Shown here one piece after another: positions 4,791-54,959 of a DNA stretch of 64,000 bases. Position numbers and translations under genes: made by a program. This DNA comes from Persicobacter psychrovividus (GTDB lineage Bacteria; Bacteroidota; Bacteroidia; Cytophagales; Cyclobacteriaceae), in the NCBI RefSeq assembly GCF_036492425.1, contig NZ_AP025292.1:2790001-2854000 (forward strand). The letters are read 5' to 3'. Position 1 is the first letter of the stretch, and every line of letters begins with the position of its first letter. Under the pieces are notes generated by a model, which was given only the letters and a program-made list of their open reading frames with translations, made no database searches and was not told the origin of the DNA.

Positions 4791-7700
4791 TTAAGCACGC
4801 TCATTTTCTGCTCTACGCTCACGCATTTCACGTAATTCTGCTTCCTCATCTTTATGAGTAACGATCAATTTACGGAAATCACGAACACCTGTACCTGCTG
4901 GAATCAAGTGACCTACGATTACGTTTTCTTTCAGTCCAAGTAATTCATCACGCTTACCACGAATTGAGGCTTCAGACAACACCTTAGTAGTTTCCTGGAA
5001 GGATGCTGCTGAGATGAACGAGTCAGTACCCAAAGATGATTGCGTAATACCTTGAAGTGTAGGTTTAGAAACTGCTGCTTGCGCATCACGTACCTGTACC
5101 AATTTCAAGTCACGACGGCGAAGGTTAGAGTTCTCATCACGAAGACGACGAGCGGTGATGATCTGACCAGCTTCTACATTTGTAGAATCACCTGCATCAG
5201 TAACCACTTTTTGATCCAATATCTTGTCGTTTTCTTCACGGAAAGAGAATTTATCAACGATTTGGTTGGTCAAGAAGATGGTATCACCTGGATCCACAAC
5301 TGTAACCTTCTGCATCATCTGGCGAACAATCACCTCGATGTGCTTATCGTTAATTTTCACACCCTGAAGACGATATACCGCCTGGATTTCGTTCACCAAA
5401 TATTCCTGAACTGAAGTAGGACCTTCTACATTCAAGATATCGTTTGGTGTTTTCGCTCCATCAGACAATGGCATACCCGCTTTCACGAAGTCATTTTCCT
5501 GAACCAAGATGTGCTTAGAAAGAGATACTAAGTAACGCTTCTTAACACCATCTTTCGACTCGATATAAACTTCACGGTTACCACGCTTGATACCTCCGTA
5601 CGTTACCACACCGTCAATCTCAGAGATTACTGCTGGATTAGATGGGTTACGTGCCTCAAATAGCTCTGTTACTCGAGGAAGACCCCCTGTAATATCGGCA
5701 GACTTACCTGCAGAACGAGGAATCTTACACAGGATTGTACCTGGCTTAATATCGTCGCCTTCTTCTACATTAAGGTATGCTCCAACAGGAATGTTATAAG
5801 ACTTGATCTCACCTTCATTTCCATTAATAGAAATCGATGGGTTCTTAGTCTTATCCTTAGTATCCATCACTACTTTCGACTGGTGACCAGTAGTATCATC
5901 CATCTCTACTTTGTAGGTGATACCCTGCTCTAAAGCATCGAAGCCAATCTTACCGCCATACTCTGAAAGGATCACGGCGTTAAATGGATCCCACTGACAG
6001 ATTTTGTCACCTTTCTCCACCTTCGCACCATCTTTGAATTTCAAGTATGCACCGTAAGGAACATTATTGGTCATCAAAGTCTTACCAGAAGCAGCGTCGA
6101 TAATTTTCACTTCGCCAGTACGTCCCATTACTACATCTGCTGGCTCATCATCAAGATCAGAATCTACAGAAATAGAACGGATTTCCTCAAATTTCAAGAT
6201 ACCTGGGAACTTCGCAATCACAGAGGCATCAGCAGCAATCGCAGATGCTGTACCCCCAACGTGGAATGTACGAAGTGTAAGCTGTGTACCTGGCTCACCA
6301 ATAGACTGTGCTGCCACAACCCCTACGGAATCACCAACCTGCGCAGAACGCAAAGTAGATAAGTTTCTACCGTAACATTTCGCACAAACACCCTTACGTG
6401 TTTCACAAGTCAATACAGAACGAACCTCAACTTTCTCAACAGCACTTTCTTCGATGCGTTGAACATGTGTTTCGCTGATTTCCTGACCTGCTTCAACCAA
6501 TACTTCACCAGACAATGGATCCTCAACATCATGTACAGAAACACGACCCAAGATACGCTCACCCAAAGGCTCAACAATTTCCTCGTTGTCTTTAAGTGGC
6601 TCCATTTCAATACCTCTCAATGTACCACAATCGTGCTCATTAATGATCACATCCTGCGCTACATCCACCAAACGACGAGTCAAGTAACCCGCATCGGCAG
6701 TTTTAAGGGCGGTATCGGCCAAACCTTTACGCGCACCGTGAGTAGAGATAAAGTACTCAAGTACATCCAAACCTTCCTTAAAGTTAGAAAGAATTGGGTT
6801 TTCAATAATTGCACCTACTGATGATCCTACGTTTTTCTGCGGCTTAGCCATCAGTCCACGCATACCACCCAACTGACGAATTTGCTCACGAGAACCACGG
6901 GCTCCGGAGTCCATCATCATGTAGATCGCATTAAATCCATTTTGATCTTCAGCCAACTGCTTCATCAATACAGTCGTCAACTGGCTGTTGATACGTGTCC
7001 AGATATCAATGATTTGATTGTAACGCTCAGTATCAGTGATAAGACCCATTTGGTAGTTCATCATCACTTCATCACGTTCCTCCTGAGCCTGAGCTACCAA
7101 TGGTGCCTTTTGGTCAGGAATCATGATATCATTAAGACCCATAGAAAGTCCACCGGCGTATGCTGTCTGGAATCCTAAGTGTTTAATATCATCCAAGAAT
7201 TTTGCAGTTTTAGCCATTCCTGTGATTTTATACACATAAGAAATGATTTGCTGCAGTTTTTTCTTGGTCAATAGTTCGTTCACGAAACCAACCTCTTCAG
7301 GTACAAACTGGTTCACAAGAACACGTCCAGCAACTGTATCAATTACTTTCGTTTCTAATTCACCCGTATCATCGTTACGAACTTTTGTTTTTACTTTAAT
7401 ATTGGCATTCTTATCACAAGCGCCTTCGTTGATCGCAATGATCACCTCTTCAGCGCCATAGAAAGTCATGCCCTCACCTTTAATTGGATAGGCAGGTGTA
7501 TTCGGACGGCCTTTTGACATATAATAAAGACCCAATACCATATCCTGAGAAGGTACGGCAATAGGCGCACCGTTGGCAGGGTTCAAAATGTTATGCGATG
7601 ATAACATCAAAACCTGTGCTTCCAATACTGCTTCATGGCCTAATGGTACGTGAACCGCCATTTGGTCACCATCAAAATCGGCGTTAAATGCAGTACATAC

Positions 7701-9098
7701 CAATGGGTGAAGCTGAATCGCTTTACCTTCAATCAATTTAGGCTGGAATGCCTGGATACCCAAACGGTGAAGTGTAGGAGCACGGTTAAGCATCACAGGG
7801 TGACCTTTAAGCACGTTTTCCAAAATATCCCAAACAACAGGATCTTTACGATCAACGATTTTCTTCGCTGACTTCACTGTTTTTACGATACCACGTTCAA
7901 TCAGCTTGCGGATAACGAATGGCTTGAACAGCTCGGCTGCCATATTCTTTGGCAAACCACATTCGTGCATTTTCAACTCAGGACCAACGACAATTACCGA
8001 ACGACCAGAATAATCAACACGCTTACCCAACAAGTTTTGACGGAAACGACCTTGCTTACCTTTCAGCATATCAGAAAGGGACTTCAACGCACGGTTACCA
8101 TCAGAACGAACAGCGTTTACTTTACGAGAGTTATCGAATAATGAATCGACAGCCTCTTGCAGCATACGTTTCTCGTTACGAAGGATCACTTCAGGAGCCT
8201 TAATATCGATCAAACGTTTCAAACGGTTGTTACGGATAATTACACGACGGTAAAGATCATTCAAGTCAGATGTTGCAAAACGACCACCATCCAAAGGCAC
8301 CAATGGGCGCAATTCTGGTGGAATTACTGGCACCATACGAATAACCATCCACTCTGGGCGGTTATCGATACGCGTACGTGAATCACGGAAAGCCTCTACA
8401 ACTTTCAAACGCTTCAAAGCTTCTGCTTTACGCTGCTGAGAAGTATCTGTTGCTGCCTGATGACGCAATGCAAAAGACAATGAATCCAACTCTGTGCGCG
8501 CCAACAACATCTCAATGGCATCAGCACCCATCTTCGCAATAAACTTGCTTGGATCATCATCGTCAAGCATTTGGTTCTCACGAGGCAATTTGTCCATGAT
8601 CTCCAAATACTCATCTTCGGTTAAGAAATCCATTTTCTGAATTTCATCTTCCTCTTTTACACCAGGCTGAATTACAACATAACGTTCGTAATAAATGATC
8701 TGATCTAATTTTTTTGTTGGAAGACCTAACAAATAACCAATCTTGTTAGGTAAAGAACGGAAGTACCAAATGTGTGCTACAGGAACTACCAATTCGATGT
8801 GTCCCATACGCTCACGACGTACTTTCTTCTCTGTTACTTCTACACCACAACGATCACAAACGATCCCCTTGTAGCGAATTCTTTTATATTTTCCACAATG
8901 ACACTCCCAATCCTTCACAGGACCGAAGATTCGCTCACAGAAAAGACCACCCATTTCCGGCTTATAAGTACGGTAATTGATGGTTTCTGGCTGAGTTACC
9001 TCCCCGAATGAACTCTCCAGAATAGATTCTGGAGAGGCCAATGAGATGGTTACTCTTGAAAAGTCATTATTGATTTTTTTATTCTTTCTGAAACTCAT
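4791..9098 (-). CDS. rpoC: DNA-directed RNA polymerase subunit beta'
   Basis: Largest subunit of RNA polymerase, 1435 residues. The catalytic NADFDGDQM motif that chelates the active-site Mg2+ is present, as are the N-terminal zinc-binding cysteines ([20 protein letters not shown], near residue 66), the second zinc site ([13 protein letters not shown]) and the trigger-loop region. It follows rpoB by 36 bases in the same operon. It is intact, at the length usual for Bacteroidota. Confidence 0.98.
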
Positions 9099-42717: not shown

Positions 42718-44934
42718 TTAAGGTTTTTTCCATAAAAATGATCGCTGTTGCCGTGCGATGAACTGCTTCGAGCGTGCATCATAACGAATGCCCTGATAAA
42801 TCATCGGGATCACATCAAGGCCTCCACTGCTGATCACGCCATATTTACCCCGACGGCAGGTCAGCAGCCTGTTGCTGGTCAATGGCTTAATCAAATCAAA
42901 CTTTGGGGTCAGACGTAAACTCCCTTTATTGTTAATGTAACCATACTTCCCATTCAGCTTCACCAGAAAACCACCCGTATTCATGCGTTCCATTTCGGGG
43001 TATAAGGGCTTGACGAGCTCCTGCCCATTCAAATCAACCACACCCCAAAGTCCATCTTTCTGAACCATCGCCAACCCATTTTCATAAGGCTTCACGGCAT
43101 CGTAATTGGGCTGAAGGACAATCTCCTCTTTCCTGTTCATAAATCCCCAGCCCCCTTTGATATTTACTGGGGCACGATCCTGCATATATGCACCCGCGTG
43201 ATCATATCGGTTGGCAAGTCGCAATGTGCCATGCATATCAATAAAGCCATACTGATCATCAAGCTTTGCCCCGATAAAGTCCTCGCCAAAAGTTGCATAA
43301 TGGTGCACTCCTCGCGAAAAAGGGATGACCACCTTTCCGCTATCGTCCAACAGAGCGGCCAGGCCTCCACGATATATCGCATATTTGCCGTGGGTGAGAT
43401 CAACAAGGCTGTCATAATCCACGAAAAATGTTTTTCTGCCCGCAGTATCAATAAGCCCAATTTTTTGATTGTTTCCGCGCTCAATAAATCCGAGTGGGTG
43501 AGTTGTCAGGGCGTTGAAGGTAAAATACACTTCATCGCCATTGGTATTGGTCAGCTTACTCCCAAACTGATCTTTCGAAAACCACATGCCATGTGCCCAT
43601 TGTATAGGCGTAGGCCGTGGTCTGACGATCCATTCCTCCTTACGGTTGATTACCCCAAATTTATTTAAATACTTCACCAGAAACTGCCCCTGATGCACTT
43701 CAATCACATCATCATAACGCGCATAAATCACAGGTTTGTTCGTCGAGTCCGTTACCCCCCAGTATTTACCCTGCTGAAATGCCCACATGCCATTGTTCAG
43801 TATTTTCAGACCCTTGTAGGATGCACTGAGTTTTACTCCAGTAGCACTGAAAATCGAAATGCTATTTTTATTCCTGCTCAGTACTACAAAATCCTCTTTG
43901 ACAAAAACACTGTCAAACCGAAAACGCGTGAGTTGTTCCCCTTCTACAGTAACAAGTGCCAGTTTGTCTTGCTTTCGCGCAACCAACAAATTTGAATTTA
44001 CAGGAACAAGATGCGGATAAACAATAGAGGAGCTCATTGAACCACTACTGACCACCTGATCAGCATTATTTCGGTGCAATATCGCGCGTGTTTCAGAGAT
44101 TGGACTGAGGCTATCGCCCATGTATTTTTTCTGTACCTTATTTTGGTCAGAAAGCAAAGTGAGGTCAGCAAAAGGCTCCATCTTCCAATGATCAAGCTCC
44201 CACTGAATACTTTTCTTTTCTACAGGAACAGTTACCGTTCCTTCTTTGGTCAGTAAACCAACTGCCCCATTTTTATAGGCCACCAGAGCAGGCCCCACGC
44301 TCAGCTTAAGACTATCAAAGGCGAAGTTCGTCAAGAGTTTTCCTTCAAAAGTAGCCAATGCCACTTCTCCGTCGGTATTTTTGACTACCAGTCGGTCGTC
44401 GCCCAATTTTTGAATATTCGGATACTGGAAAGGCAACAGTGCCCGACCGTGATCGTCGATAATGCCATAAAAAACATCGCTACCGATCTCTTGCCGAGCT
44501 AAGTAGTGGTCTTTTTCATCCAAGGCCCAGAGGTTCACAAAACGGAAGTCAACACTTACCTTACCTTTATCATTCAGTAAGCCGTATTTTTGCTGAAGGG
44601 AAAATTTATCACGATAGCTGGCCAATAGAAGACCTTTCTGCCCTACGGGGTAAATACTGTTGAATTTTGCAGGCACAATCTTAACATCCTTGAGGTTTAA
44701 TACCCCCCAAAGGCCTGCTTCCTGATAACCGATCAGTGAGTTTGGCGTAACCAAAGCAACATTTTTTTCACTCCACCCTAATTGGTCATATTTCGCAGGA
44801 ATGATCTGATTGCCCTGCGCGTCAATCAATCCGACCTTATTTTGTTTGGTCACCACCTGAAAATTGTCCGCAACAGCGAAACGGTAACTCCCTAACACAA
44901 AAACCAATATGAACAGTATTCTTATAAAACTCAC
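42718..44934 (-). CDS. WG-repeat protein, exported
   Basis: 738 residues. A signal peptide (about 1-22, ending SYRFAVADN) is followed by many copies of the WG (KWG) repeat with the pattern G-xx-D-x-xG-xx-xxP-x-x-Y-D: KVGLIDAQGNQIIPAKYD, WGVLNLKDVKIVPAKF, YGFIDMHGTLRLANRYDHA, GWGFMNRKEEIVLQPNYDAV, WGVVDLNGQELVKPLYPEM, YGYINNKGSLRLTPKFDLI. Such repeats fold as beta-hairpins and are thought to bind other molecules; partner unknown. It lies downstream of the small basic gene, which is cut off from it by a terminator. Confidence 0.88.
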   Translation of the reverse strand: MSFIRILFILVFVLGSYRFAVADNFQVVTKQNKVGLIDAQGNQIIPAKYDQLGWSEKNVALVTPNSLIGYQEAGLWGVLNLKDVKIVPAKFNSIYPVGQKGLLLASYRDKFSLQQKYGLLNDKGKVSVDFRFVNLWALDEKDHYLARQEIGSDVFYGIIDDHGRALLPFQYPNIQKLGDDRLVVKNTDGEVALATFEGKLLTNFAFDSLKLSVGPALVAYKNGAVGLLTKEGTVTVPVEKKSIQWELDHWKMEPFADLTLLSDQNKVQKKYMGDSLSPISETRAILHRNNADQVVSSGSMSSSIVYPHLVPVNSNLLVARKQDKLALVTVEGEQLTRFRFDSVFVKEDFVVLSRNKNSISIFSATGVKLSASYKGLKILNNGMWAFQQGKYWGVTDSTNKPVIYARYDDVIEVHQGQFLVKYLNKFGVINRKEEWIVRPRPTPIQWAHGMWFSKDQFGSKLTNTNGDEVYFTFNALTTHPLGFIERGNNQKIGLIDTAGRKTFFVDYDSLVDLTHGKYAIYRGGLAALLDDSGKVVIPFSRGVHHYATFGEDFIGAKLDDQYGFIDMHGTLRLANRYDHAGAYMQDRAPVNIKGGWGFMNRKEEIVLQPNYDAVKPYENGLAMVQKDGLWGVVDLNGQELVKPLYPEMERMNTGGFLVKLNGKYGYINNKGSLRLTPKFDLIKPLTSNRLLTCRRGKYGVISSGGLDVIPMIYQGIRYDARSKQFIARQQRSFLWKKP

Positions 44935-45262: not shown

Positions 45263-45886
45263 TTACTCTCCTTTAATAGATTTGATGAACTGCTTCCAGG
45301 TACCGTTATTCAATAGTGGAATCGAGAACCCCTGATATTGATTGAAATGTTGATTTACCGACTGCTGATAGTTATCCATCGGGGTGGCACTCAGGTTGGA
45401 TTGGCGGTTCCACATCACGGCACGCTCGCGATTGACATTCCCCATCACGACACGATTTGCCTGCTGATCAGGAAAACGCATTTCGGCAATGGCATCTTTG
45501 GCATCTTCTTCCGTAGCGAATGGCAGAACGTCCACGTTGGGCAATACCAGCACATCTGGCTCCAAATGCATGGCAATACTGATATTCGACTGGCGATCTT
45601 TTGGGATAATCAGTGCCCGATTGGTGTGGTTCAATGAACTGACAATAATGCTGTCTCCTGCCAAAACGGGCATGGTAAAGTAACCATAGGCATTCGAGGT
45701 GGTTCCGCGCCCAGTACTTGGCACAAAAACGTGCACGCCGTTTAGTCCTCGTTCGGTTCCCTGTTCCAGTATCACACCTGAAAACTGAATGATCTGTTGA
45801 TGTTGGTCGTTGTCAGATTGTGCTTTTGCTTCAGGAATGCCGATCCCCAGCAAGCAAAATGTTAACAACAATAAGATATATCGCAT
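45263..45886 (-). CDS. Exported protein with carboxypeptidase-like regulatory domain
   Basis: 207 residues. MRYILLLLTFCLLGIGIPEAKAQ is a signal peptide; residues about 33-105 (IQFSGVILEQGTERGLNGVHVFVPSTGRGTTSNAYGYFTMPV) form the beta-sandwich CarboxypepD_reg-like domain also found at the N-terminus of TonB-dependent receptors. The C-terminal part is not recognised. The ATG at 45886 is preferred; a longer frame from 45919 would overlap a promoter box. Role probably in the periplasm or outer membrane; not known. Confidence 0.78.
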   Translation of the reverse strand: MRYILLLLTFCLLGIGIPEAKAQSDNDQHQQIIQFSGVILEQGTERGLNGVHVFVPSTGRGTTSNAYGYFTMPVLAGDSIIVSSLNHTNRALIIPKDRQSNISIAMHLEPDVLVLPNVDVLPFATEEDAKDAIAEMRFPDQQANRVVMGNVNRERAVMWNRQSNLSATPMDNYQQSVNQHFNQYQGFSIPLLNNGTWKQFIKSIKGE

Positions 45887-45916
45887 AATAAATCGTTTGA
45901 ATCGTATTCCTTTTCT

Positions 45917-45924
45917 CAAAAATA
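45917..45924 (-). promoter_or_regulatory. Putative -7 box for the 45263-45886 gene
   Basis: TATTTTTG on the minus strand fits TAnnTTTG; TTTTTG lies 22 bases further up. It overlaps the alternative upstream start, so it supports the ATG at 45886. Confidence 0.5.
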
Positions 45925-46003: not shown

Positions 46004-46396
46004 ATGCGCATAAAAAAAGTAAACCTACCCACGGGAAGCCAGCTCTACAAGGCCCTCAGTGAAGAGGCCCGTTTACGGATATTACACCTCATTTTCAGAA
46101 ATGGAGAAATGTGTATCAGCGATCTGGAGATTATCCTTGATTTTACCCAAACGAAAACCTCAAGGCACCTGAACTATATGAAACAGGCGGGACTTTTAAC
46201 CACCCGCAAGCATGACCAGTGGGTTTTCTACTCCATCAAGGAGGCTATGCAAGATATTGTCGGCACTTTACTCAGTATTGTGGAAGGGGACATGCTGCTG
46301 GACAAAGATCAGGAAATATTTCAGATCATGTACAGTAACCGTGAGCTGGCGATATATAAAGCACAGCACCTCAGAAGTCGGTATGCACTTCAGTAG
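46004..46396 (+). CDS. ArsR/SmtB-family transcriptional regulator
   Basis: 130 residues with a winged helix-turn-helix: LYKALSEEARLRILHLIF, CISDLEIILDFTQTKTSRHLNYMKQAGLL and the wing KHDQWVFYSI (residues about 15-80). The classical alpha-3 metal motif ELCVCDL reads EMCISDL, so only one Cys is in place and metal sensing is uncertain. Divergent from the 45263 gene, so it may control that gene or itself. Confidence 0.88.
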   Translation: MRIKKVNLPTGSQLYKALSEEARLRILHLIFRNGEMCISDLEIILDFTQTKTSRHLNYMKQAGLLTTRKHDQWVFYSIKEAMQDIVGTLLSIVEGDMLLDKDQEIFQIMYSNRELAIYKAQHLRSRYALQ

Positions 46397-46476: not shown

Positions 46477-47736
46477 TTAGATTTCATTCACCTGCATGAA
46501 GGCCGTCTGAGGGATTGCTCCTCCGTCGTAAATATCATACTTCACTTTGTAGATCATACCATCTTCGAAATCACCAAAGAAACGAGCCTTAAGGATTGCC
46601 TCAATTTTCGCATTGATGGTTTCTTCAGTATTATTTCTCATATCAAAGTTAGGGTAACGCTCGCCATTTAGTTTGTAGTCTTCTTCTACTAACTCATAAA
46701 GGATTGCGCTTTCAGGCTCATTACCATCCTCTACATCCAACTTCACAACAGTGAATGGATCTGTAATCCAGGTCGATTTTGAGTAATCCTGCTTGTTTTC
46801 AGAGAACAGGTAGTTACCGAAAGCAGTCAGCTCCAAACCTTTCCAAACACCTTTTTCAAAGTCCCAGTCTCCGTAATATGCCTGAGCAACCCACATACCA
46901 TCTTCAACTTGATACTGGATCATTTCCTTTTGTGTACCATAGAATTTGAAGTTGATCGTAATTTCAGACTTCCCATTGGCGATCGAAGAAGATGCCAAGA
47001 AAGCAGGAATAAAATCCTCGGTGCTTACAAATCTGCTGAAGTAATAATTTTCTCCAGGCTGATCTTTTTCTGTACCCATTGAAACGTAATCCTGATCGGT
47101 CAATACATAGGCATCGTTACCGTTTTCCATTGTACCTTCACCAAAAGTAGCATCCTCGCCCTTTTGCGTCCAGGTACCATCCGTTCCCTTCACCCATGTA
47201 GCAAGCTGTGGCTTTGCCATTTGGTAAACCTTATATTGTAAGATTGAGCTCATGCCTTCAACAGCATAAGGATACATATTTTTTAGCAATACTGGCAAAT
47301 ACTTATCTTCCTGCCCAGCACTAACTGTTTTGTATCCTAAACCAAGATTATCGTAATCTTCGTCCGTCAAAACATAGTAGCTATTTTCTTCCAGCTCTTT
47401 GGCATTTTCCAATGGTTGCTTTTGGTTAAAGTGAGCCACCACAACCTGCATTTCTTCTCCGTAGAATTTCTTCGTCAGGATTTCAGGCAAGTATTCCGTT
47501 GCAGGATACTCTACCGTAAAAGAACCCTGTGCGCCGATGGTATGTACCGACGACAACTGATAATCAGCAGGCGTCAGGATATATTCTTCCATTGCCAACT
47601 CACGGGAGCTTTGAAACAATTCACGTTGTGCTTTAAGATCAGCGTGATCAGCCAGATCGTCACGCATTCCCGACAAAGGGTCACAAGCCATGGCCATCAA
47701 AAGGATAAGGCCAAATATGAAGTTATATGATTTCAT
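46477..47736 (-). CDS. Repeat-containing lipoprotein paired with a TonB-dependent receptor
   Basis: 419 residues. Lipobox LLMAMAC with Cys18. Four repeats start with a Y-x-L-x-x-x-D-Y motif at about 52, 121, 210 and 347 (YILTPADY, YVLTDEDY, YVLTDQDY, YELVEEDY); the first three are followed by a Y/F-(L/I)-P segment (YLPEILTKKF, YLPVLLKNMY, FIPAFLASSS) and a strand rich in Tyr/Val. It is 41 bases downstream of the receptor gene on the same strand, so the two form an operon. By analogy with SusD-type partners it may be a surface lipoprotein that helps the receptor capture a ligand, but it is not recognised as SusD; the function is unknown. Confidence 0.78.
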   Translation of the reverse strand: MKSYNFIFGLILLMAMACDPLSGMRDDLADHADLKAQRELFQSSRELAMEEYILTPADYQLSSVHTIGAQGSFTVEYPATEYLPEILTKKFYGEEMQVVVAHFNQKQPLENAKELEENSYYVLTDEDYDNLGLGYKTVSAGQEDKYLPVLLKNMYPYAVEGMSSILQYKVYQMAKPQLATWVKGTDGTWTQKGEDATFGEGTMENGNDAYVLTDQDYVSMGTEKDQPGENYYFSRFVSTEDFIPAFLASSSIANGKSEITINFKFYGTQKEMIQYQVEDGMWVAQAYYGDWDFEKGVWKGLELTAFGNYLFSENKQDYSKSTWITDPFTVVKLDVEDGNEPESAILYELVEEDYKLNGERYPNFDMRNNTEETINAKIEAILKARFFGDFEDGMIYKVKYDIYDGGAIPQTAFMQVNEI

Positions 47737-47777
47737 GATTATTCTTATTATTAAGTAAAAGGAGTAAAAAAATTGGC

Positions 47778-50336
47778 TTAGAACTCTACTTTAAAACCGA
47801 TAGTGTAAGTTCTACCCATTCCCATATAAGCGTACATCGACATCCAGTCTGCTGCATCTGTTGCATCAGCAATGTATTCGGCATCCAGTACGTTATTAAT
47901 GTTACCTGAAACAATAGCATCCACTTTACCAATTTTGAAACGGTAGTTGGCTCTCATGTCCAACAATCCGAATGTTGGTAATTTCAAGGCCTGAACACCT
48001 TCCATAGCGGCGTCAGTACGTTGTGCAGGATCAAAATAAGTGTAGTTGTTTCCGTTGAATACGTAATCAGCACCCAATTTAAAATCATTGAAGATTTCGT
48101 AATCAATTCCCATAGCGGCAGTCAGCTGTGCAGCATTTCCTACTTTCAGGTCTTTGATATAAAGTGTTTCCTGATCACCAATTTGGTTTTGGTTCTGATC
48201 GAAGAAAGTTGCATCGACGTTATTGGCCCATCTCCAGTCACCAACAGATCCCATACCTGTTACTGTAATTCGGTGTGTAGGCTTCCAGGTAACATCAGCT
48301 TCAACTCCCATATGAACAGCGTTCATTCCCAAAATATTGGCGTAAATATCTTCAGGTAATGGCTCACCACCAGGACCTGGCTGACCCGCACGCTGCGTAC
48401 GAACCATTGATTTGTTCATCCATTTTGTGTAGTAAGCATTTACGTTTGCTGCAAATGTTTTTGAACGGTAACCGTAACCAATTTCAGCAGAGAAAATACC
48501 TTCATTGATCGCCTCGTCGTTCACACGGTTAGTGTGGTTCATAAATACGGCGTTCATCATTGGAGGGCGCTGAAAATAACCTGTATTGAAGAATACATTA
48601 TGGTGTTGATCCAGATTGTAGTTCACCCCAGATTTGATACTGAAGGTATTCGATCCCTGAAAGTCTGAGATATGTTCTCCTTCTTCATAGTTTCCATAGT
48701 CATAACGACGGTAGTTTACCGAAGCTGCTGCTGCGTTTACGAAAGCCGAAAGGTTATCCTTAGAATACTCTAATTGTGAGAATAATGATCCCCAAATCAC
48801 TTCACCGTCGTTATCATAACCCATTTTATCGCCTACATGCGCGATGTGCTCGGTACGCTGACCGAAAATGTTACGGCTAACAGTAATGTACTCACCACCG
48901 ATCAAATCATCCAAACGCTGATAGTGCTCACCATAGTAATAACGTACATCAGCACCACCTGTAAAATTAAGGTATTCGTTGATCTCCCAAGATAATGTAG
49001 TGATTCCACCATACCAGCTGTGGTTGTTCATAGAGGCAATACGGTAAAGGCTTGACTCTCCGTTTTCGCCATTCTCCTGATAATGTCTTGTGAAATCAAT
49101 TGGGTTATTTACATTTCCACCCAGGTGATATAGTTCACGGTTATCAGTGATATTCAAACTCTGTCCACCACCATTACCAAATGAGGCGTAAAGAGAAGTT
49201 GCGATATTCATTTTTTCATTCAATGTCCAGTAGTGGTTCAAAGAAAGCTGAGGTTTTGAATAGAAGTTTGCACGACCATTATACTCTTCACCGTTCAAAT
49301 AACCCCAATCCTGGTTGTAACGACGACCATTGTCTTCATAAGTAGAAACCAATTGCTTCGATCTGTTCTGACCGTGCCACTGCTTGGCGCCAAAAGCGTT
49401 GAAAGCAACTGTATGGTTTTTATTGATGATCTTAGAAATGTTGGCAAAGTAAGAGTAGCCCTCGAAAGCAGTACCGTCGATATAACCATTACCTACCGTT
49501 TTTGAACCCGACAATGTGATTGCCCAGCCATTTGACATCAAACCTGTAGAGGTGGTCATGGCTAATTTTTGGTAACCATCATTACCCATTACGTAACCAA
49601 TGCTACCACCTGCTTCTGCGTCGGTAGTTTTTGTAAGGATGTTAATTGTACCCCCTGCTGTTGGAACGGCCAATTTCGATGCCCCCATACCACGCTGTAC
49701 CTGCATGGTTCTTGTTACATCCGACAAACCTGCCCAGTTCGACCAGTAAACGGCACTGTTCTCCATGTCATTAACAGGAATACCGTTGATCATTACAGCA
49801 ATATTATCGTTTCCGAAACCACGCAAAGTAATACGGGAATCTCCGAAACCACCACCATCATTAGTGGTATACACCCCAGGAGTAGATTTCAGTACCGAAG
49901 GAAACTCCGAGTTTCCTAACTTACTTTCCAATTCTTTAGGCGTTACTGTCGAAACAGCTACTGGTGTTTTTCTGTCTTGTGCCACAGAAGCAATAATCTT
50001 CACTTCATCCAGCCCGACCGCATCCGATTTCATCATGATTTCGCCAAGGTCGATGGTTGAATTGTTCAACTCAACATCAATTTCTTTGGACAACATTCCA
50101 ACAAATGAAACAACGATGGTCTGCTTGCCATCAAGCTTTGTTTTCAACTCAAAATCACCATCGATGTTGGTGATTGTTCCGTCTGTTGTTTTCTTGATAA
50201 TTACGTTGGCACCAATAATTGGCTCATTGGTACTTTCCTCCAAAATATGCCCTTTCAAAAGGGATTGAGCCTGTGCGAATGTTGTAGAGAATAAGACTAA
50301 CAACATCCCAAAAAGAACGTAAAATTTGTGTTGCAT
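47778..50336 (-). CDS. TonB-dependent outer-membrane receptor
   Basis: 852 residues. Signal peptide (about 1-23), a carboxypeptidase-like regulatory domain (about 27-110, LLKGHILEESTNEPIIGANVIIKKT), a plug domain with LRGFGNDNIAVMINGIPVNDMENSAVYW (about 168-195), then a long beta-barrel ending in a C-terminal aromatic (KVEF). It imports a ligand across the outer membrane in a TonB-dependent way; the ligand is not predictable. Its partner is the downstream repeat lipoprotein. Confidence 0.93.
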   Translation of the reverse strand: MQHKFYVLFGMLLVLFSTTFAQAQSLLKGHILEESTNEPIIGANVIIKKTTDGTITNIDGDFELKTKLDGKQTIVVSFVGMLSKEIDVELNNSTIDLGEIMMKSDAVGLDEVKIIASVAQDRKTPVAVSTVTPKELESKLGNSEFPSVLKSTPGVYTTNDGGGFGDSRITLRGFGNDNIAVMINGIPVNDMENSAVYWSNWAGLSDVTRTMQVQRGMGASKLAVPTAGGTINILTKTTDAEAGGSIGYVMGNDGYQKLAMTTSTGLMSNGWAITLSGSKTVGNGYIDGTAFEGYSYFANISKIINKNHTVAFNAFGAKQWHGQNRSKQLVSTYEDNGRRYNQDWGYLNGEEYNGRANFYSKPQLSLNHYWTLNEKMNIATSLYASFGNGGGQSLNITDNRELYHLGGNVNNPIDFTRHYQENGENGESSLYRIASMNNHSWYGGITTLSWEINEYLNFTGGADVRYYYGEHYQRLDDLIGGEYITVSRNIFGQRTEHIAHVGDKMGYDNDGEVIWGSLFSQLEYSKDNLSAFVNAAAASVNYRRYDYGNYEEGEHISDFQGSNTFSIKSGVNYNLDQHHNVFFNTGYFQRPPMMNAVFMNHTNRVNDEAINEGIFSAEIGYGYRSKTFAANVNAYYTKWMNKSMVRTQRAGQPGPGGEPLPEDIYANILGMNAVHMGVEADVTWKPTHRITVTGMGSVGDWRWANNVDATFFDQNQNQIGDQETLYIKDLKVGNAAQLTAAMGIDYEIFNDFKLGADYVFNGNNYTYFDPAQRTDAAMEGVQALKLPTFGLLDMRANYRFKIGKVDAIVSGNINNVLDAEYIADATDAADWMSMYAYMGMGRTYTIGFKVEF

Positions 50337-50891
50337 TGAACTTTTATTTGTGAGTTTGCATTAATTACGATCACAAAAGTAAGGCACTCATTATTAGCCT
50401 CTAAGTACACAATCACACATTAGTAAATCCCAAACACGCAACAAAAACCACGAAAATCAATACAATTAACTCATAATCAATATATTGTATTAATATATTG
50501 GTAAATAATTAAAATACGGCTTTACGTGTTATTTAATTATTACCATAAAATAAACAACAACACAAAACACGATCGCAACAGATTAAAACTCAACACATTA
50601 AAACATAACACCCTAAACACATTGGTACATTAAAGGTATAAATTTAACTGTTTTACATTATTACAATAACGAATCAGCATAACACCAAATCAAAGGGTTA
50701 AAAAATGATATTCTAAACGCAAAAAATCATTCACAAACCCCTACTCACGCAAATACAATTACCTTGCAATACTTTTTAAATTTACCATATTGATAAGTCA
50801 CCCGAACTAATTTGACATTATAACAAATACGCCTTCATTTTAGGTGCCAAAAATAGCAATTCATTAAGACTGCTGCGTCAGCAACAATCGA
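50337..50891. other. Intergenic gap between the two receptor genes
   Basis: 555 bases, very A/T-rich (repeated tracts of CACA, TTAA and AAAA between about 50400 and 50790). No supportable gene or RNA is seen. It holds the receptor promoter near 50374 and, at the far end, a short GCTG/CAGC hairpin (about 50868-50882) that could be a weak end signal for the Oar-like gene. Confidence 0.6.
50374..50381 (-). promoter_or_regulatory. Putative -7 box for the TonB receptor-lipoprotein operon
   Basis: TACTTTTG on the minus strand fits TAnnTTTG, about 40 bases before the receptor ATG. No -33 TTTG is at the usual distance. Confidence 0.45.
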
Positions 50892-53800
50892 CTAAAAAGT
50901 ATACCTCAACCCAAGCTGTGCCTGCCACCTTGCGCTATTCACGCCACTGTCGTCGACATCCCAGATATCTCCATTTGGCGCATCAAAAATAAATGATGGC
51001 TGATCCGTTCCTTCGCCACCCACAGACCGAATCAACTGATAATTCCCAAACTGAACAAAATATCTTCGTCCCCAATCTTTGTTAAGAAAATTGGTGAAAT
51101 TGAAAATATCAAAAGAAACTGTCAGGGTATGCTGCTTATTATTTTTTGTTTTGATGAAGAATTCTTGCGCCAGTTTCAGGTCCATTGTAAAGGTAAATGG
51201 AAGGCGATCACCATTTCGTTCGGCATACTGCCCCCTTCGCTCCGACAGATAGTCGTCATTCCGAATATAGGTATCCAAAGCCTGCCATTGTTCTTCGGCA
51301 GTAATAACCCTCCCGCCAGATTGATAATCGATCAAGTTTATTTCTGAAATATCCCTCGGAACATAAATCAGGTCTGAAGCCGTAGAGGCTGAACCAGGGT
51401 CATCATTGGACAATTGCCCCGTGCCTCGGAGTGTGTTCCCGTTGGCATCCGTTACCCGACCGCCGCCATACACATAGGAAAACCGTCGTCCTGATTCGGC
51501 AGTCCCGAACAATGAAACCGTTGTGGCCATACTCTTCAGGTATGCCTTGCGGTAGGTTACAAAACCAACAATCCGATGCCCCGGGTCAAAGTCTGAAAAT
51601 GCCAGGTCGAGGTTATTCTTACCGTTTACGTTTTCTGTAAACCTCCACTGCGATGAGTTCTGAGAGGAGGTGGCATCGGTAAGGGATTTCGTTTGGCCAA
51701 AAGTGTAAGACAGGCTCCACGCCAAACCAAAATCTGTATTCTGCTTTATAGTGGTCGATATATTATAGGAGTAACCTACGGAAGTATTTTCTGCCACGAT
51801 AATATCTGTATAGCGGGGGTCCAGTCTATTTTCCCGATCGTAAAATGGGCGGGTATCACCAGGCCCTGCCAGATTACCTTTTGGGGTGGGCGCCACATTA
51901 TAGTTTTTCACCAGAATATCGTTGAGGGTTTTGGTGTACATCAGCTCGACAGTAGCCACTAAGCCTGCAGGCAATTTTTGATCAATCGCTAAATTAGATC
52001 GCCATACCTGGGGTAATTTGAAATCGTCTCTAAATAAATCCATTTGCCCTGAAGGTTCATTGCTGATAGGGCCTGTGGGTGGCTGATTGTTCACATCGGG
52101 AATAAAAAGCTGCGAACGCTCCGAAATAGAGCCGATTTCCTGGCCATTATTGGTGTAGGCGCCTCCAAGCCAAACCAAGGGCACCCGGCTGTTGAATATA
52201 CCCGTTCCACCACGAATCTGCGTGCGCTGATCACCAAACACGTCATAGTTAAAACCTACCCTCGGCGCAAACAATGGGCGCACTTTAAACAAATCCCCAG
52301 AACGAATTCCGTTGGTATCCCAGCCCGCCTGCTGAAGCAAAGGAATGGTTTCATTATTAAATTGTTCATTCGCTTTTGGTGTATCCGTGTATACGGGAAT
52401 GTCTATCCGTAATCCAGCGGTAATTTTCAGCTGATCATTGACCTCGATTTCATCCTGTGCATAAAAGCCCAACTGAAAAGCGGTAAAATCGGCCACTGCC
52501 GTATTGGCTCCACCGACAGCCGAGGGGTTGTCAATAGAATAACTTCGATTGTACTGCACCACCAAATCAGGATCAGCATCACCATTCAGAAAATCTTGCA
52601 CGGAGTTATATTGGTAGTCACCAAAATTCTGCCGAACAAACAAGTTGAAAATCTTATAAAACTCATTATGCGTCCCCACCGTGATGGTGTGTCTTCCCCT
52701 GAATATCGAAAAATTGTCGGTGAGGGTAAAAACATCTTGCTTCAGGATGTTTGCTGCTGCAAAAGGGTCACTTCCCAATGAAATACGCGCTGCGCCATCA
52801 TTAATAGATACCGATGGAAAAGGGTCGCCAAGTACCGAACGATCATCCTCCACATGGGTATAACCCAATATCAGATTATTGGAAAATTTACTGCCGAAGT
52901 TACTGTTGATCTCCAAGGCCGAAGAGTTGGTTGTGGATGGAAACAATCGCCCATTGTTAAAGTAATTGATCCTGTTATTGCTCGATCGCCCTGGCTGTGT
53001 CGCTTCGCCATGGGTATAACTGTGCCGTACGGTCAGCTTATGATTCCTATTAATATTGTAATCTAAACGGATCAGGAATTTCTCCCCCTCCAGGCGGGCG
53101 GTATTATTCCTGAAGCCTCCAGGATCGTAACCATATTTGGTAATCAGGCTCTGGCGTAAAGCATCCAAACCTGCAGCGCCTACATCACCAGCATAACCCG
53201 CAGGATCGTAGGGTTGTGGGGTTTCGTCGCGCTGAATTTCCACATTGGCAAAGAAAAATAGCTTGTTCTTAATGATCGGTCCGCCCAATCTTGCGCCATA
53301 AGTCTGTGCCGTAAAATCCGCCAAAGATTGTCGTTCTACATCAGGATTATCGGTAGGGGTTTTTCCTGCCAACCGCTGATTCCTGAACAACCAGTAAGCA
53401 GAACCCTCAAATATATTCGACCCACTGCGGGTAACGGCGTTAATACCACCACCAGCAAAACCTCCCTGGCGCACATCAAAAGGCGCAATAACGACCTGAA
53501 ACTGCTTAATGGCATCAATACTGATTGGGGAAATTCCTGCCTGCCCTCCATTGGTTCCCCCTGAGGAGAGGCCATAGACATCGTTATTTACTGCCCCGTC
53601 AATAAAAATGGCATTATAGCGATTATTAGCCCCTGCAATGGAAATCCCGCCATTTTCAAGCTTGGCCTGTGGTGTCAGTCTGGTAAAATCATTCAAATCC
53701 CGTGAAACCGTCGGTAAAGATTCAATGCTTTTGGTGCCCACCACCGTTTGGGCTCCAGTACGGTTGCCATCAAAATCATCCTCCGCTGATGCCTTCACCT

Positions 53801-54167
53801 CCACCCCTTCAAGGGTTTTTACATCTTCGCCAAGTTTCACATTCTCTTTCAGGGTTTGCCCCAAAGTGAGGTACAAGCCCTCTTTGATATAATTACCATA
53901 GCCGACAAAGGACACCTTCAGGGTGTAAGGTCCTCCTACGGACATGCCATTAATACGATAAAAACCATTAAAATCTGCCGTACTCCCATACTCTGCCCCC
54001 GTCTGGGTGTCGGTCGCAATCACCGTGGCACCTGGTAAGGCTTCCCCTGCCGAATCGGTAACCCTTCCATTCAAAGAGGAAGTGGTGGATCCCTGCCCAA
54101 AAGCATTACAAATCAGCAACAGGGGCAGCAAAATGCTCAATAGCAGTTTCGAGGTGCAGGTCATCAT
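50892..54167 (-). CDS. Oar-like TonB-dependent outer-membrane receptor
   Basis: 1091 residues. Signal peptide (about 1-24, ending NAFG), a CarboxypepD_reg domain (SSLNGRVTDSAGEALPGATVIATDTQTGAEYGS, about 28-62), a plug-like region (NRYNAIFIDGAVNNDVYGLSSGGTNGGQAG, about 183-212, GGINAVTRSGSNIFEGS) and a large beta-barrel ending LGLRYTF. The layout is that of Oar (OmpA-related) proteins, first described in Myxococcus as adventitious outer-membrane proteins. Ligand or role unknown. It is the largest protein in the window after the RNA polymerase subunits and stands alone. Confidence 0.9.
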   Translation of the reverse strand: MMTCTSKLLLSILLPLLLICNAFGQGSTTSSLNGRVTDSAGEALPGATVIATDTQTGAEYGSTADFNGFYRINGMSVGGPYTLKVSFVGYGNYIKEGLYLTLGQTLKENVKLGEDVKTLEGVEVKASAEDDFDGNRTGAQTVVGTKSIESLPTVSRDLNDFTRLTPQAKLENGGISIAGANNRYNAIFIDGAVNNDVYGLSSGGTNGGQAGISPISIDAIKQFQVVIAPFDVRQGGFAGGGINAVTRSGSNIFEGSAYWLFRNQRLAGKTPTDNPDVERQSLADFTAQTYGARLGGPIIKNKLFFFANVEIQRDETPQPYDPAGYAGDVGAAGLDALRQSLITKYGYDPGGFRNNTARLEGEKFLIRLDYNINRNHKLTVRHSYTHGEATQPGRSSNNRINYFNNGRLFPSTTNSSALEINSNFGSKFSNNLILGYTHVEDDRSVLGDPFPSVSINDGAARISLGSDPFAAANILKQDVFTLTDNFSIFRGRHTITVGTHNEFYKIFNLFVRQNFGDYQYNSVQDFLNGDADPDLVVQYNRSYSIDNPSAVGGANTAVADFTAFQLGFYAQDEIEVNDQLKITAGLRIDIPVYTDTPKANEQFNNETIPLLQQAGWDTNGIRSGDLFKVRPLFAPRVGFNYDVFGDQRTQIRGGTGIFNSRVPLVWLGGAYTNNGQEIGSISERSQLFIPDVNNQPPTGPISNEPSGQMDLFRDDFKLPQVWRSNLAIDQKLPAGLVATVELMYTKTLNDILVKNYNVAPTPKGNLAGPGDTRPFYDRENRLDPRYTDIIVAENTSVGYSYNISTTIKQNTDFGLAWSLSYTFGQTKSLTDATSSQNSSQWRFTENVNGKNNLDLAFSDFDPGHRIVGFVTYRKAYLKSMATTVSLFGTAESGRRFSYVYGGGRVTDANGNTLRGTGQLSNDDPGSASTASDLIYVPRDISEINLIDYQSGGRVITAEEQWQALDTYIRNDDYLSERRGQYAERNGDRLPFTFTMDLKLAQEFFIKTKNNKQHTLTVSFDIFNFTNFLNKDWGRRYFVQFGNYQLIRSVGGEGTDQPSFIFDAPNGDIWDVDDSGVNSARWQAQLGLRYTF

Positions 54168-54410: not shown

Positions 54411-54959
54411 ATGGAAATAAAACCAACCAAAATTGAAGGGCTTGTCGAAATTCAACCTGACGTGTACGGTGATGCGCGTGGTTATTTTTTGGAGTCTTTC
54501 CACGAAGATAAATACGCTGCCATTGGCATTAAGGAGCACTTTGTTCAGGACAACCAATCTTTTTCTACCAAAGGTGTGTTAAGGGGTTTGCACTTCCAGA
54601 AAGCACCTTACGCACAGGGCAAGCTTGTCAGGGTGGTGATGGGAAAAGTGCTCGATGTGGCTGTGGATCTAAGACCCGACTCCCCGACTTTCGGCCAGTA
54701 CGACACCTGTATCCTCGATGCCGAAAAGCACAATCAGTTTTATGTACCTCCAGGTTTTGCTCATGGATTTTTAGCCCTCGAAGACTGTGTATTCAGCTAC
54801 AAATGTACGGGCACTTATCACAAAGCTTCCGAATCGGGCATCATTTATAATGACCCTGAACTGAATATTGACTGGGGAAGTGACCTGATCGAAAATCCAA
54901 CCATTTCCGAAAAAGATCAAGTATTACCTTCCTTCGCCGCTTACCGCGACAGCTTATAA
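54411..54959 (+). CDS. rfbC: dTDP-4-dehydrorhamnose 3,5-epimerase
   Basis: Third enzyme of the dTDP-L-rhamnose pathway, a cupin-fold epimerase; 182 residues. VLRGLHFQKAPYAQGKLVRVVMG (residues about 57-79, with the catalytic His in LRGLHFQ) and FYVPPGFAHGFLAL with the second His/Tyr pair are complete. No rfbA, rfbB or rfbD is beside it; those genes must lie elsewhere. Its promoter and terminator show it is transcribed alone. Confidence 0.94.
   Translation: MEIKPTKIEGLVEIQPDVYGDARGYFLESFHEDKYAAIGIKEHFVQDNQSFSTKGVLRGLHFQKAPYAQGKLVRVVMGKVLDVAVDLRPDSPTFGQYDTCILDAEKHNQFYVPPGFAHGFLALEDCVFSYKCTGTYHKASESGIIYNDPELNIDWGSDLIENPTISEKDQVLPSFAAYRDSL

Follow-up and report, generated by a model that had tools for sequence, protein, structure and literature searches.

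A four-domain lipoprotein encoded beside a TonB-dependent receptor

The 64,000-nucleotide stretch of Persicobacter psychrovividus DNA analyzed here (contig NZ_AP025292.1, positions 2,790,001 to 2,854,000; referred to below as the window) carries, on its reverse strand, a gene for a TonB-dependent receptor (TBDR) that is followed by a gene for a lipoprotein with four repeat domains (Table 1). This lipoprotein family is unnamed in the libraries searched, and the pair that it forms with the receptor is real and conserved. The short gap between the two genes here and similarly short gaps in relatives suggest that they are cotranscribed.

The first-pass annotation of this DNA described four Y-x-L-x-x-x-D-Y repeats, the first three of them linked to a Y/F-(L/I)-P segment, and both patterns hold up. 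The strict motif is found at residues 52, 121, 210, and 347; among 20,000 shuffled versions of the lipoprotein, 254 contain at least one match, 2 contain two, and none contains more. Y/F-(L/I)-P segments are located at residues 82, 146, and 242, following repeats 1 to 3 only. A repeat profile built on relatives, leaving out the window lipoprotein, its homologue within the genus, and a paralogue in the same genome, recognizes four domains at residues 51 to 107, 121 to 194, 208 to 285, and 346 to 409 (24.6 to 42.1 bits each) and gives the whole protein 117.9 bits, compared with a maximum of 12.6 bits for the whole sequence among 500 shuffled controls. The YxLxxxDY motif can thus be assigned to a domain of ~70 to 90 amino acids. 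At the sequence level, the lipoprotein is made of four diverged copies of an ~80-residue domain, with a clear periodicity.

In a set of 20 proteins (the window lipoprotein and 19 relatives), four such domains are found in 17 members, five in 2, and two in the own-genome paralogue (independent E value of <0.01). The gene of this paralogue (locus L061, positions 7561 to 8259, reverse strand) lies directly downstream of a receptor that is 52% identical to that of the window. In the 17 four-domain proteins, the best match outside the protein is to the domain with the same number in 15, 15, 17, and 17 cases for repeats 1 to 4, respectively, which argues that the four-domain plan is old; window repeat 2, whose best match is a repeat 3, is among the exceptions. 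The lipobox Cys18 is invariant in a nine-sequence alignment. Some relatives are longer, with repeats 2 and 3 separated by additional sequence, and 2 of the 9 scanned proteins match a choice-of-anchor J domain. The window lipoprotein is very acidic, with an isoelectric point of 4.3; values of 4.1 to 4.6 are seen in 18 of the 20 proteins.

The layout had been described as neither SusD nor another recognized partner family, and database searches agree with that description. The window lipoprotein matches no Pfam family at an E value of ≤1, no NCBIfam model, and no PDB sequence. SusD models, such as PF07980 and PF14322, are matched neither by this protein nor among the matches of nine family members. 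A profile of nine family proteins has 3w1o as its sole PDB match (E = 0.31), and the best PDB match of the repeat profile is 4k61 (E = 0.59). The latter was taken as a hint of a PepSY-like fold for the repeat; an hhalign comparison of 29 repeats with PepSY-like proteins (PF11396) then gave a probability of 3.8% and an E value of 0.011, in a weak test with only four PepSY-like sequences, and this candidate was set aside. No relative of the lipoprotein was found in a search of plasmids or in one scan of viral contigs; one scan of genome contigs returned a single locus, from an uncultured Persicobacter sp., that encodes a 100% identical protein. In the open-access literature searched, the lipoprotein is undescribed in titles and abstract openings, which is no proof of absence.

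The receptor contains a CarbopepD_reg_2 domain and a Plug domain (3.7e-14; 53.6 bits compared with the Pfam cutoff of 23.9). No Pfam model of an outer membrane beta-barrel matches it at an E value of ≤1, and a barrel is predicted from its length and from its relatives. In a quickly built tree of 62 receptors, the 20 lipoprotein-linked TBDRs, including that of the window, form a group that includes just one other receptor, an unlinked second copy in genome G010, with a Shimodaira-Hasegawa-like approximate likelihood ratio test (SH-aLRT) value of 92, just under the 95 mark.

Table 1. Features of the receptor-lipoprotein pair (positions in the window)
Feature	Position	Strand	Remarks
TBDR gene	47778-50336	-	852 amino acids; CarbopepD_reg_2 and Plug matches; SusC model far under cutoff
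Gene for lipoprotein with four repeat domains, TBDR partner	46477-47736	-	419 amino acids; without Pfam, NCBIfam, or PDB match
Gap from TBDR stop to lipoprotein start	47737-47777	-	41 bp; TBDR gene first, lipoprotein gene second
Signal peptide and lipobox, residues 1-18 (...MAMAC, then DPL)	47683-47736	-	From sequence; Cys18 in alignment
Repeat domain 1, envelope residues 49-120	47377-47592	-	YILTPADY, YLP; profile, 26.8 bits
Repeat domain 2, residues 117-202	47131-47388	-	YVLTDEDY, YLP; profile, 42.1 bits
Repeat domain 3, residues 207-294	46855-47118	-	YVLTDQDY, FIP; profile, 24.6 bits
Repeat domain 4, residues 344-418	46483-46707	-	YELVEEDY, without Y/F-L/I-P; profile, 35.4 bits
Region upstream of the pair	50337-50891	-	Best 11-bp-period TTAACAT site 11/14 within 350 bp, not above shuffles

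Conservation of the pair and enzymes encoded beside it

The pairing with a TBDR, also part of the first-pass annotation, is borne out by comparison with relatives. A receptor of the same subfamily, 41 to 79% identical to that of the window, is encoded upstream of the lipoprotein gene and on the same strand in 19 of 20 fetched loci. The twentieth (L062) matches the lipoprotein profile with an E value of 1.4e-10, has no receptor of this clade within its 15.5 kb, and is excluded from later counts, which therefore refer to 19 relatives, or 20 loci with the window. In 17 of the 19 related pairs, the two genes are separated by 11 to 88 bp after the stop codon (14 to 91 bp if the stop codon is counted); the remaining pairs have values of -44 and 720 bp, which stem from uncertain start codons. 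The 720-bp value belongs to locus L055 (7450 to 8652, reverse strand), whose lipoprotein frame of 600 codons lacks an obvious start close to the receptor; this makes the gap unreliable and may reflect a start or frame problem.

Among 148 family-level genomes, a search with the single protein found the lipoprotein in 9 (E ≤ 1e-3) and the nine-sequence profile in 13 (E ≤ 1e-6), 8 of which had themselves supplied sequences to the profile. In a sample of the phylum, it is present in at least 8 of 395 genomes, including that of the window (at most three candidates per genome were scored). It is found in none of 40 loci from the wider receptor clade.

Directly downstream of the pair, 8 of the 19 related loci encode an endonuclease I, with PF04231 present in all 8. 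In six of these loci, the nuclease also carries a DUF5689 domain and a Por secretion tail of the type IX secretion system (T9SS), and in the two others (L057 and L060) it carries immunoglobulin- or cadherin-type domains instead. The arrangement is seen in 6 of the 13 family-level genomes that have the lipoprotein (binomial probability of 8e-17 at a generous chance of 3 in 5,000 per locus), three of the six belonging to one genus. Across the 148 genomes, PF04231 is encoded in 10 of 13 genomes with the lipoprotein and in 23 of 135 without it (P = 1.6e-5, uncorrected for relatedness). The window receptor is 42 to 47% identical to the eight nuclease-linked receptors. Enzymes acting on phosphodiesters are also found in the 40 wider-clade loci, where a PF01663 phosphodiesterase gene follows the receptor gene in seven and is divergent from it in two (all nine confirmed with Pfam), and endonuclease I is encoded near the receptor in three (all confirmed), one of which also has 5'-nucleotidase-type genes. 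The flavobacterial locus L060, which has both lipoprotein and nuclease, and L119, which has neither, share an upstream gene named by eye as glucose-6-phosphate isomerase and a downstream gene of ~144 codons.

A putative Pho box upstream of related receptors

Many related receptor genes are preceded by the direct repeat TTAACAT-N4-TTAACAT. Sites were scored as matches out of 14, at a period of 11 bp, in the 350 bp before the receptor gene, with eight other periods for comparison. Scores of ≥12 are reached at 10 of the 20 lipoprotein-linked receptors (0 to 3 for the other periods) and scores of ≥13 at 5 (0 to 1 for the others), in the same 20 upstream regions that had been viewed when the motif was chosen. 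The 40 wider-clade receptors, which are the only independent test, give ≥12 in 19 cases (other periods, 1 to 4) and ≥13 in 11 (other periods, 0 to 1). Among control upstream regions, 7 of 195 have sites of ≥12 (P = 5.5e-8 compared with 10 of 20), five of which belong to clade receptors, being shared with or located beside them: three (L044, L046, and L047) are shared between a clade receptor and the gene facing it, and two correspond to a single site, at another receptor of the clade (L053). The remaining ones are a second copy before an Oar-like receptor in L056 and a site before the endonuclease gene of L049.

In L056, identical 20-bp copies of the operator precede each of two receptor genes (positions 944 and 4525). 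The unlinked second clade receptor of G010 (L053, 12645 to 15233, reverse strand) has a 13/14 operator and no adjacent lipoprotein gene, and the lipoprotein-linked receptor of that genome has only an 11/14 site.

In eight genomes, exact sites number seven, four of them at this locus, compared with one for the reversed pattern; the genome of the window has none. Outside the locus, the operator precedes Na_Pi_cotrans genes in three of six relatives (G036, G088, and G133), facing genes of the phosphate porin family (Porin_O_P) in G088 and G133. In the window's own genome, the 14 kb around the two Na/Pi-cotransporter genes contain only two sites of ≥12/14, at distances of 83 and 85 bp upstream of these genes. 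This repeated placement is why TTAACAT-N4-TTAACAT is read as a putative Pho box. It resembles the Pho boxes of Escherichia coli and cyanobacteria in consisting of direct repeats with an 11-bp period.

Several genes flank the pair in the window. Directly upstream is a second TBDR gene, of the OMP_b-brl_4 (Oar-like) type (50892 to 54167, reverse strand); in L048 and L056, a gene for a similar receptor likewise lies upstream of the pair. An ArsR-family regulator gene (46004 to 46396, forward strand) is convergent with the lipoprotein gene, and L048 and L053 each have a similar-looking gene next to the pair. These two loci also have, near the pair, similar-looking genes for a WG-repeat protein (42718 to 44934, reverse strand, in the window; 733 and 766 amino acids in L048 and L053, respectively) and for a small CarbopepD_reg_2 protein (45263 to 45919, reverse strand; 211 and 217 amino acids). 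A gene at 54411 to 54959 (forward strand) is read by eye as encoding a dTDP-sugar epimerase; L047 and L053 carry similar-looking genes close to the pair, which suggests old synteny.

Proposed role, alternatives, and known systems

The two proteins likely form an outer membrane uptake complex, with the lipoprotein probably located on the outer face of the receptor, where it would serve for capture or as a lid. The receptor subfamily most likely functions in phosphate starvation. Outside the cell, nucleic acids or other phosphodiesters would be cut by a secreted endonuclease I or, elsewhere in the receptor clade, by a phosphodiesterase; the receptor-lipoprotein complex would take up the cleavage products, and a PhoB-type regulator would switch on the operon. 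On this genomic evidence, the best-supported role for the family is the uptake, by a TBDR-lipoprotein complex, of phosphorus derived from nucleic acids or from other phosphodiesters, and we put the probability of the whole statement at roughly one-half. More tentatively, and at odds well short of even, these unnamed four-domain surface lipoproteins and their own TBDR subfamily might constitute a phosphate-regulated outer membrane importer of nucleic acid fragments, which would be set free by a secreted endonuclease I that is encoded alongside and mostly carries a T9SS tail. Such an importer would be a counterpart of SusCD without SusD, patchily distributed across Bacteroidota, with DNA or RNA supplying the phosphorus. 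A role in phosphorus scavenging has less than even odds for the copy in the window.

In addition to the post hoc choice of the operator motif, a number of observations weigh against a phosphorus role. An adjacent nuclease gene is lacking in 11 of the 19 related loci, and 28 of the 40 wider-clade loci have none of the counted phosphodiester enzymes among their listed neighbors. The acidity of the lipoprotein is ill suited to simple electrostatic binding of polyanions such as nucleic acids; it is easier to reconcile with binding bridged by metal or with a lid that does not itself bind them. Structure predictions are of very low confidence and unusable, with a mean predicted local distance difference test score of 30.6 for the mature lipoprotein alone and 42.0 for repeat 3 together with two sister repeats. 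As for the operator, one-mismatch sites number 44, compared with 29 for the reversed pattern, a background so high that single sites mean little, and three of the seven exact sites (two in G036 and one in G112) lie between divergent genes with no visible link to phosphate. One-mismatch sites also precede TonB_C-type genes in three genomes of one genus (L173, scanned; L175 and L187, read by eye) and Pfam-confirmed DUF1573 genes in L158, L162, and L179 (G007, G112, and G036, respectively). The notion that the operator marks phosphate genes only is weakened by these sites and by the exact sites beside secreted-looking proteins. In each of these three cases, one of the divergent genes encodes such a protein. 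The two proteins concerned look similar to each other: one, beside the two G036 sites, is encoded at L146, 588 to 1469, and has no Pfam match at an E value of ≤1e-3, and the other is encoded at L148, 724 to 1482, in G112 (both on the reverse strand).

The link to phosphorus and nucleic acids derives from relatives and is weakest in the window's own branch. The best site upstream of the window receptor, at 11/14, is equaled in 38 of 100 shuffles, and the whole 64-kb window has no site of ≥12/14; PF04231 is absent from the window's genome at an E value of ≤1e-3. The genus homologue (10/14) and the own-genome paralogue (11/14) likewise have neither a good box nor an adjacent nuclease gene. The receptors of these three pairs form one branch (SH-aLRT of 99), and, given the shared lack of both features, this branch may have changed its use. 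In that case, the pair would still be a TBDR-lipoprotein importer, now for another nutrient, such as a peptide, a glycan fragment, or a metal complex, and the phosphorus role would be confined to other branches. We regard this as a serious rival, although at odds well short of even: the window receptor retains 42 to 47% identity to the nuclease-linked ones, the domain plan of the lipoprotein is kept, and PF04231 is present elsewhere in the congener G113 and in the same-species genome G049 (which lies outside the set fetched with wide flanks), so that a nuclease could act in trans in close kin.

Other substrates are less probable for the family. A glycan or amino sugar uptake system resembling SusCD, in which the lipoprotein would be a functional analogue of SusD, might be suggested by the match of receptor residues 27 to 190 to the SusC/RagA model TIGR04056, by the match of residues 3 to 244 to a SusC homologue in PDB, and by the choice-of-anchor J stretch in two relatives. 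Moreover, a SIS-domain gene of the amino-sugar etherase type lies 205 to 285 bp upstream of the receptor gene, on the same strand, in L043, L045, L049, and L050, which represent two genera. GKRP_SIS_N is matched in both of these genes that were scanned (L043 and L045) and in that of L052, where the gene is on the opposite strand. This gene is a hint of another substrate and as such also counts against the phosphorus reading; apart from L052, however, it is absent beside the pair in the other loci, the SusC match covers only the N-terminal part of the receptor with 92 bits compared with a cutoff of 368, and no SusD family is matched, all of which makes such a system improbable. A role in the uptake of cobalamin or another cofactor, as in BtuB-BtuG, is less probable still. 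Receptor residues 106 to 285 do match the B12 receptor model TIGR01779 (2.2e-15), but with 56 bits against a cutoff of 600; the relatives have a nuclease and phosphate context, and there is no Rfam family, and so no known riboswitch, in the 44- to 56-kb region of the window. Equally remote is the idea that the two genes are coincidental neighbors and the lipoprotein an independent adhesin or structural protein, to which its repeat architecture might point; the adjacent receptor in nearly all fetched loci and the clustering of the linked receptors on the tree already disfavor it.

The set of conserved receptor, lipoprotein, secreted nuclease, and phosphate-type operator would be a testable candidate for the route by which phosphorus in nucleic acids crosses the outer membrane of Bacteroidota. 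It would add a non-SusD class to the known lid or capture lipoproteins of TBDRs, and the TTAACAT-N4-TTAACAT operator, if confirmed, would provide a handle on phosphate regulons across Bacteroidota. Like known Pho boxes, this operator is found near genes of Na/Pi cotransporters and of the phosphate porin family; it differs from them in its sequence.

The gene order is that of SusCD systems, in which a TBDR with CarbopepD_reg_2 and Plug domains is followed on the same strand, after a short gap, by a lipoprotein gene. In contrast to SusCD, the window receptor falls far below the SusC cutoff, and the lipoprotein consists of YxLxxxDY domains and matches no SusD model. BtuB-BtuG likewise combines a TBDR with a non-SusD surface lipoprotein; BtuG is a beta-propeller. 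The pair described here differs in offering no evidence of a link to B12, given the subthreshold TIGR01779 match and the lack of an Rfam match in the region searched.

Further parallels are PusCD and the TonB-dependent transporter (TBDT) and lipoprotein loci that are induced by low phosphate in Flavobacterium johnsoniae, which combine TBDTs with lipoproteins in a proposed role in organic phosphorus uptake and include low-phosphate-induced PF04231 nucleases (excerpts of PMC8115612). The PusD lipoproteins differ in being of the SusD type (pf07980 and pf14322), and FI to FIII are described as pectate lyase- or polygalacturonase-like in those excerpts (PMC8115612). According to the same excerpts, plant-associated Bacteroidota reportedly lack the PstSABC phosphate transporter and induce TBDTs instead, and depletion of inorganic phosphate in F. 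johnsoniae induces the extracellular PF04231 nucleases EndA1 and EndA2, several TBDTs, and unnamed lipoproteins; the authors suggest that the induced transporters take up organic phosphorus (PMC8115612). Although the window lipoprotein family is not named in the excerpted parts, these data, by analogy, support the general model in which a TBDR and its lipoprotein partner would import phosphorus released by a secreted nuclease (PMC8115612).

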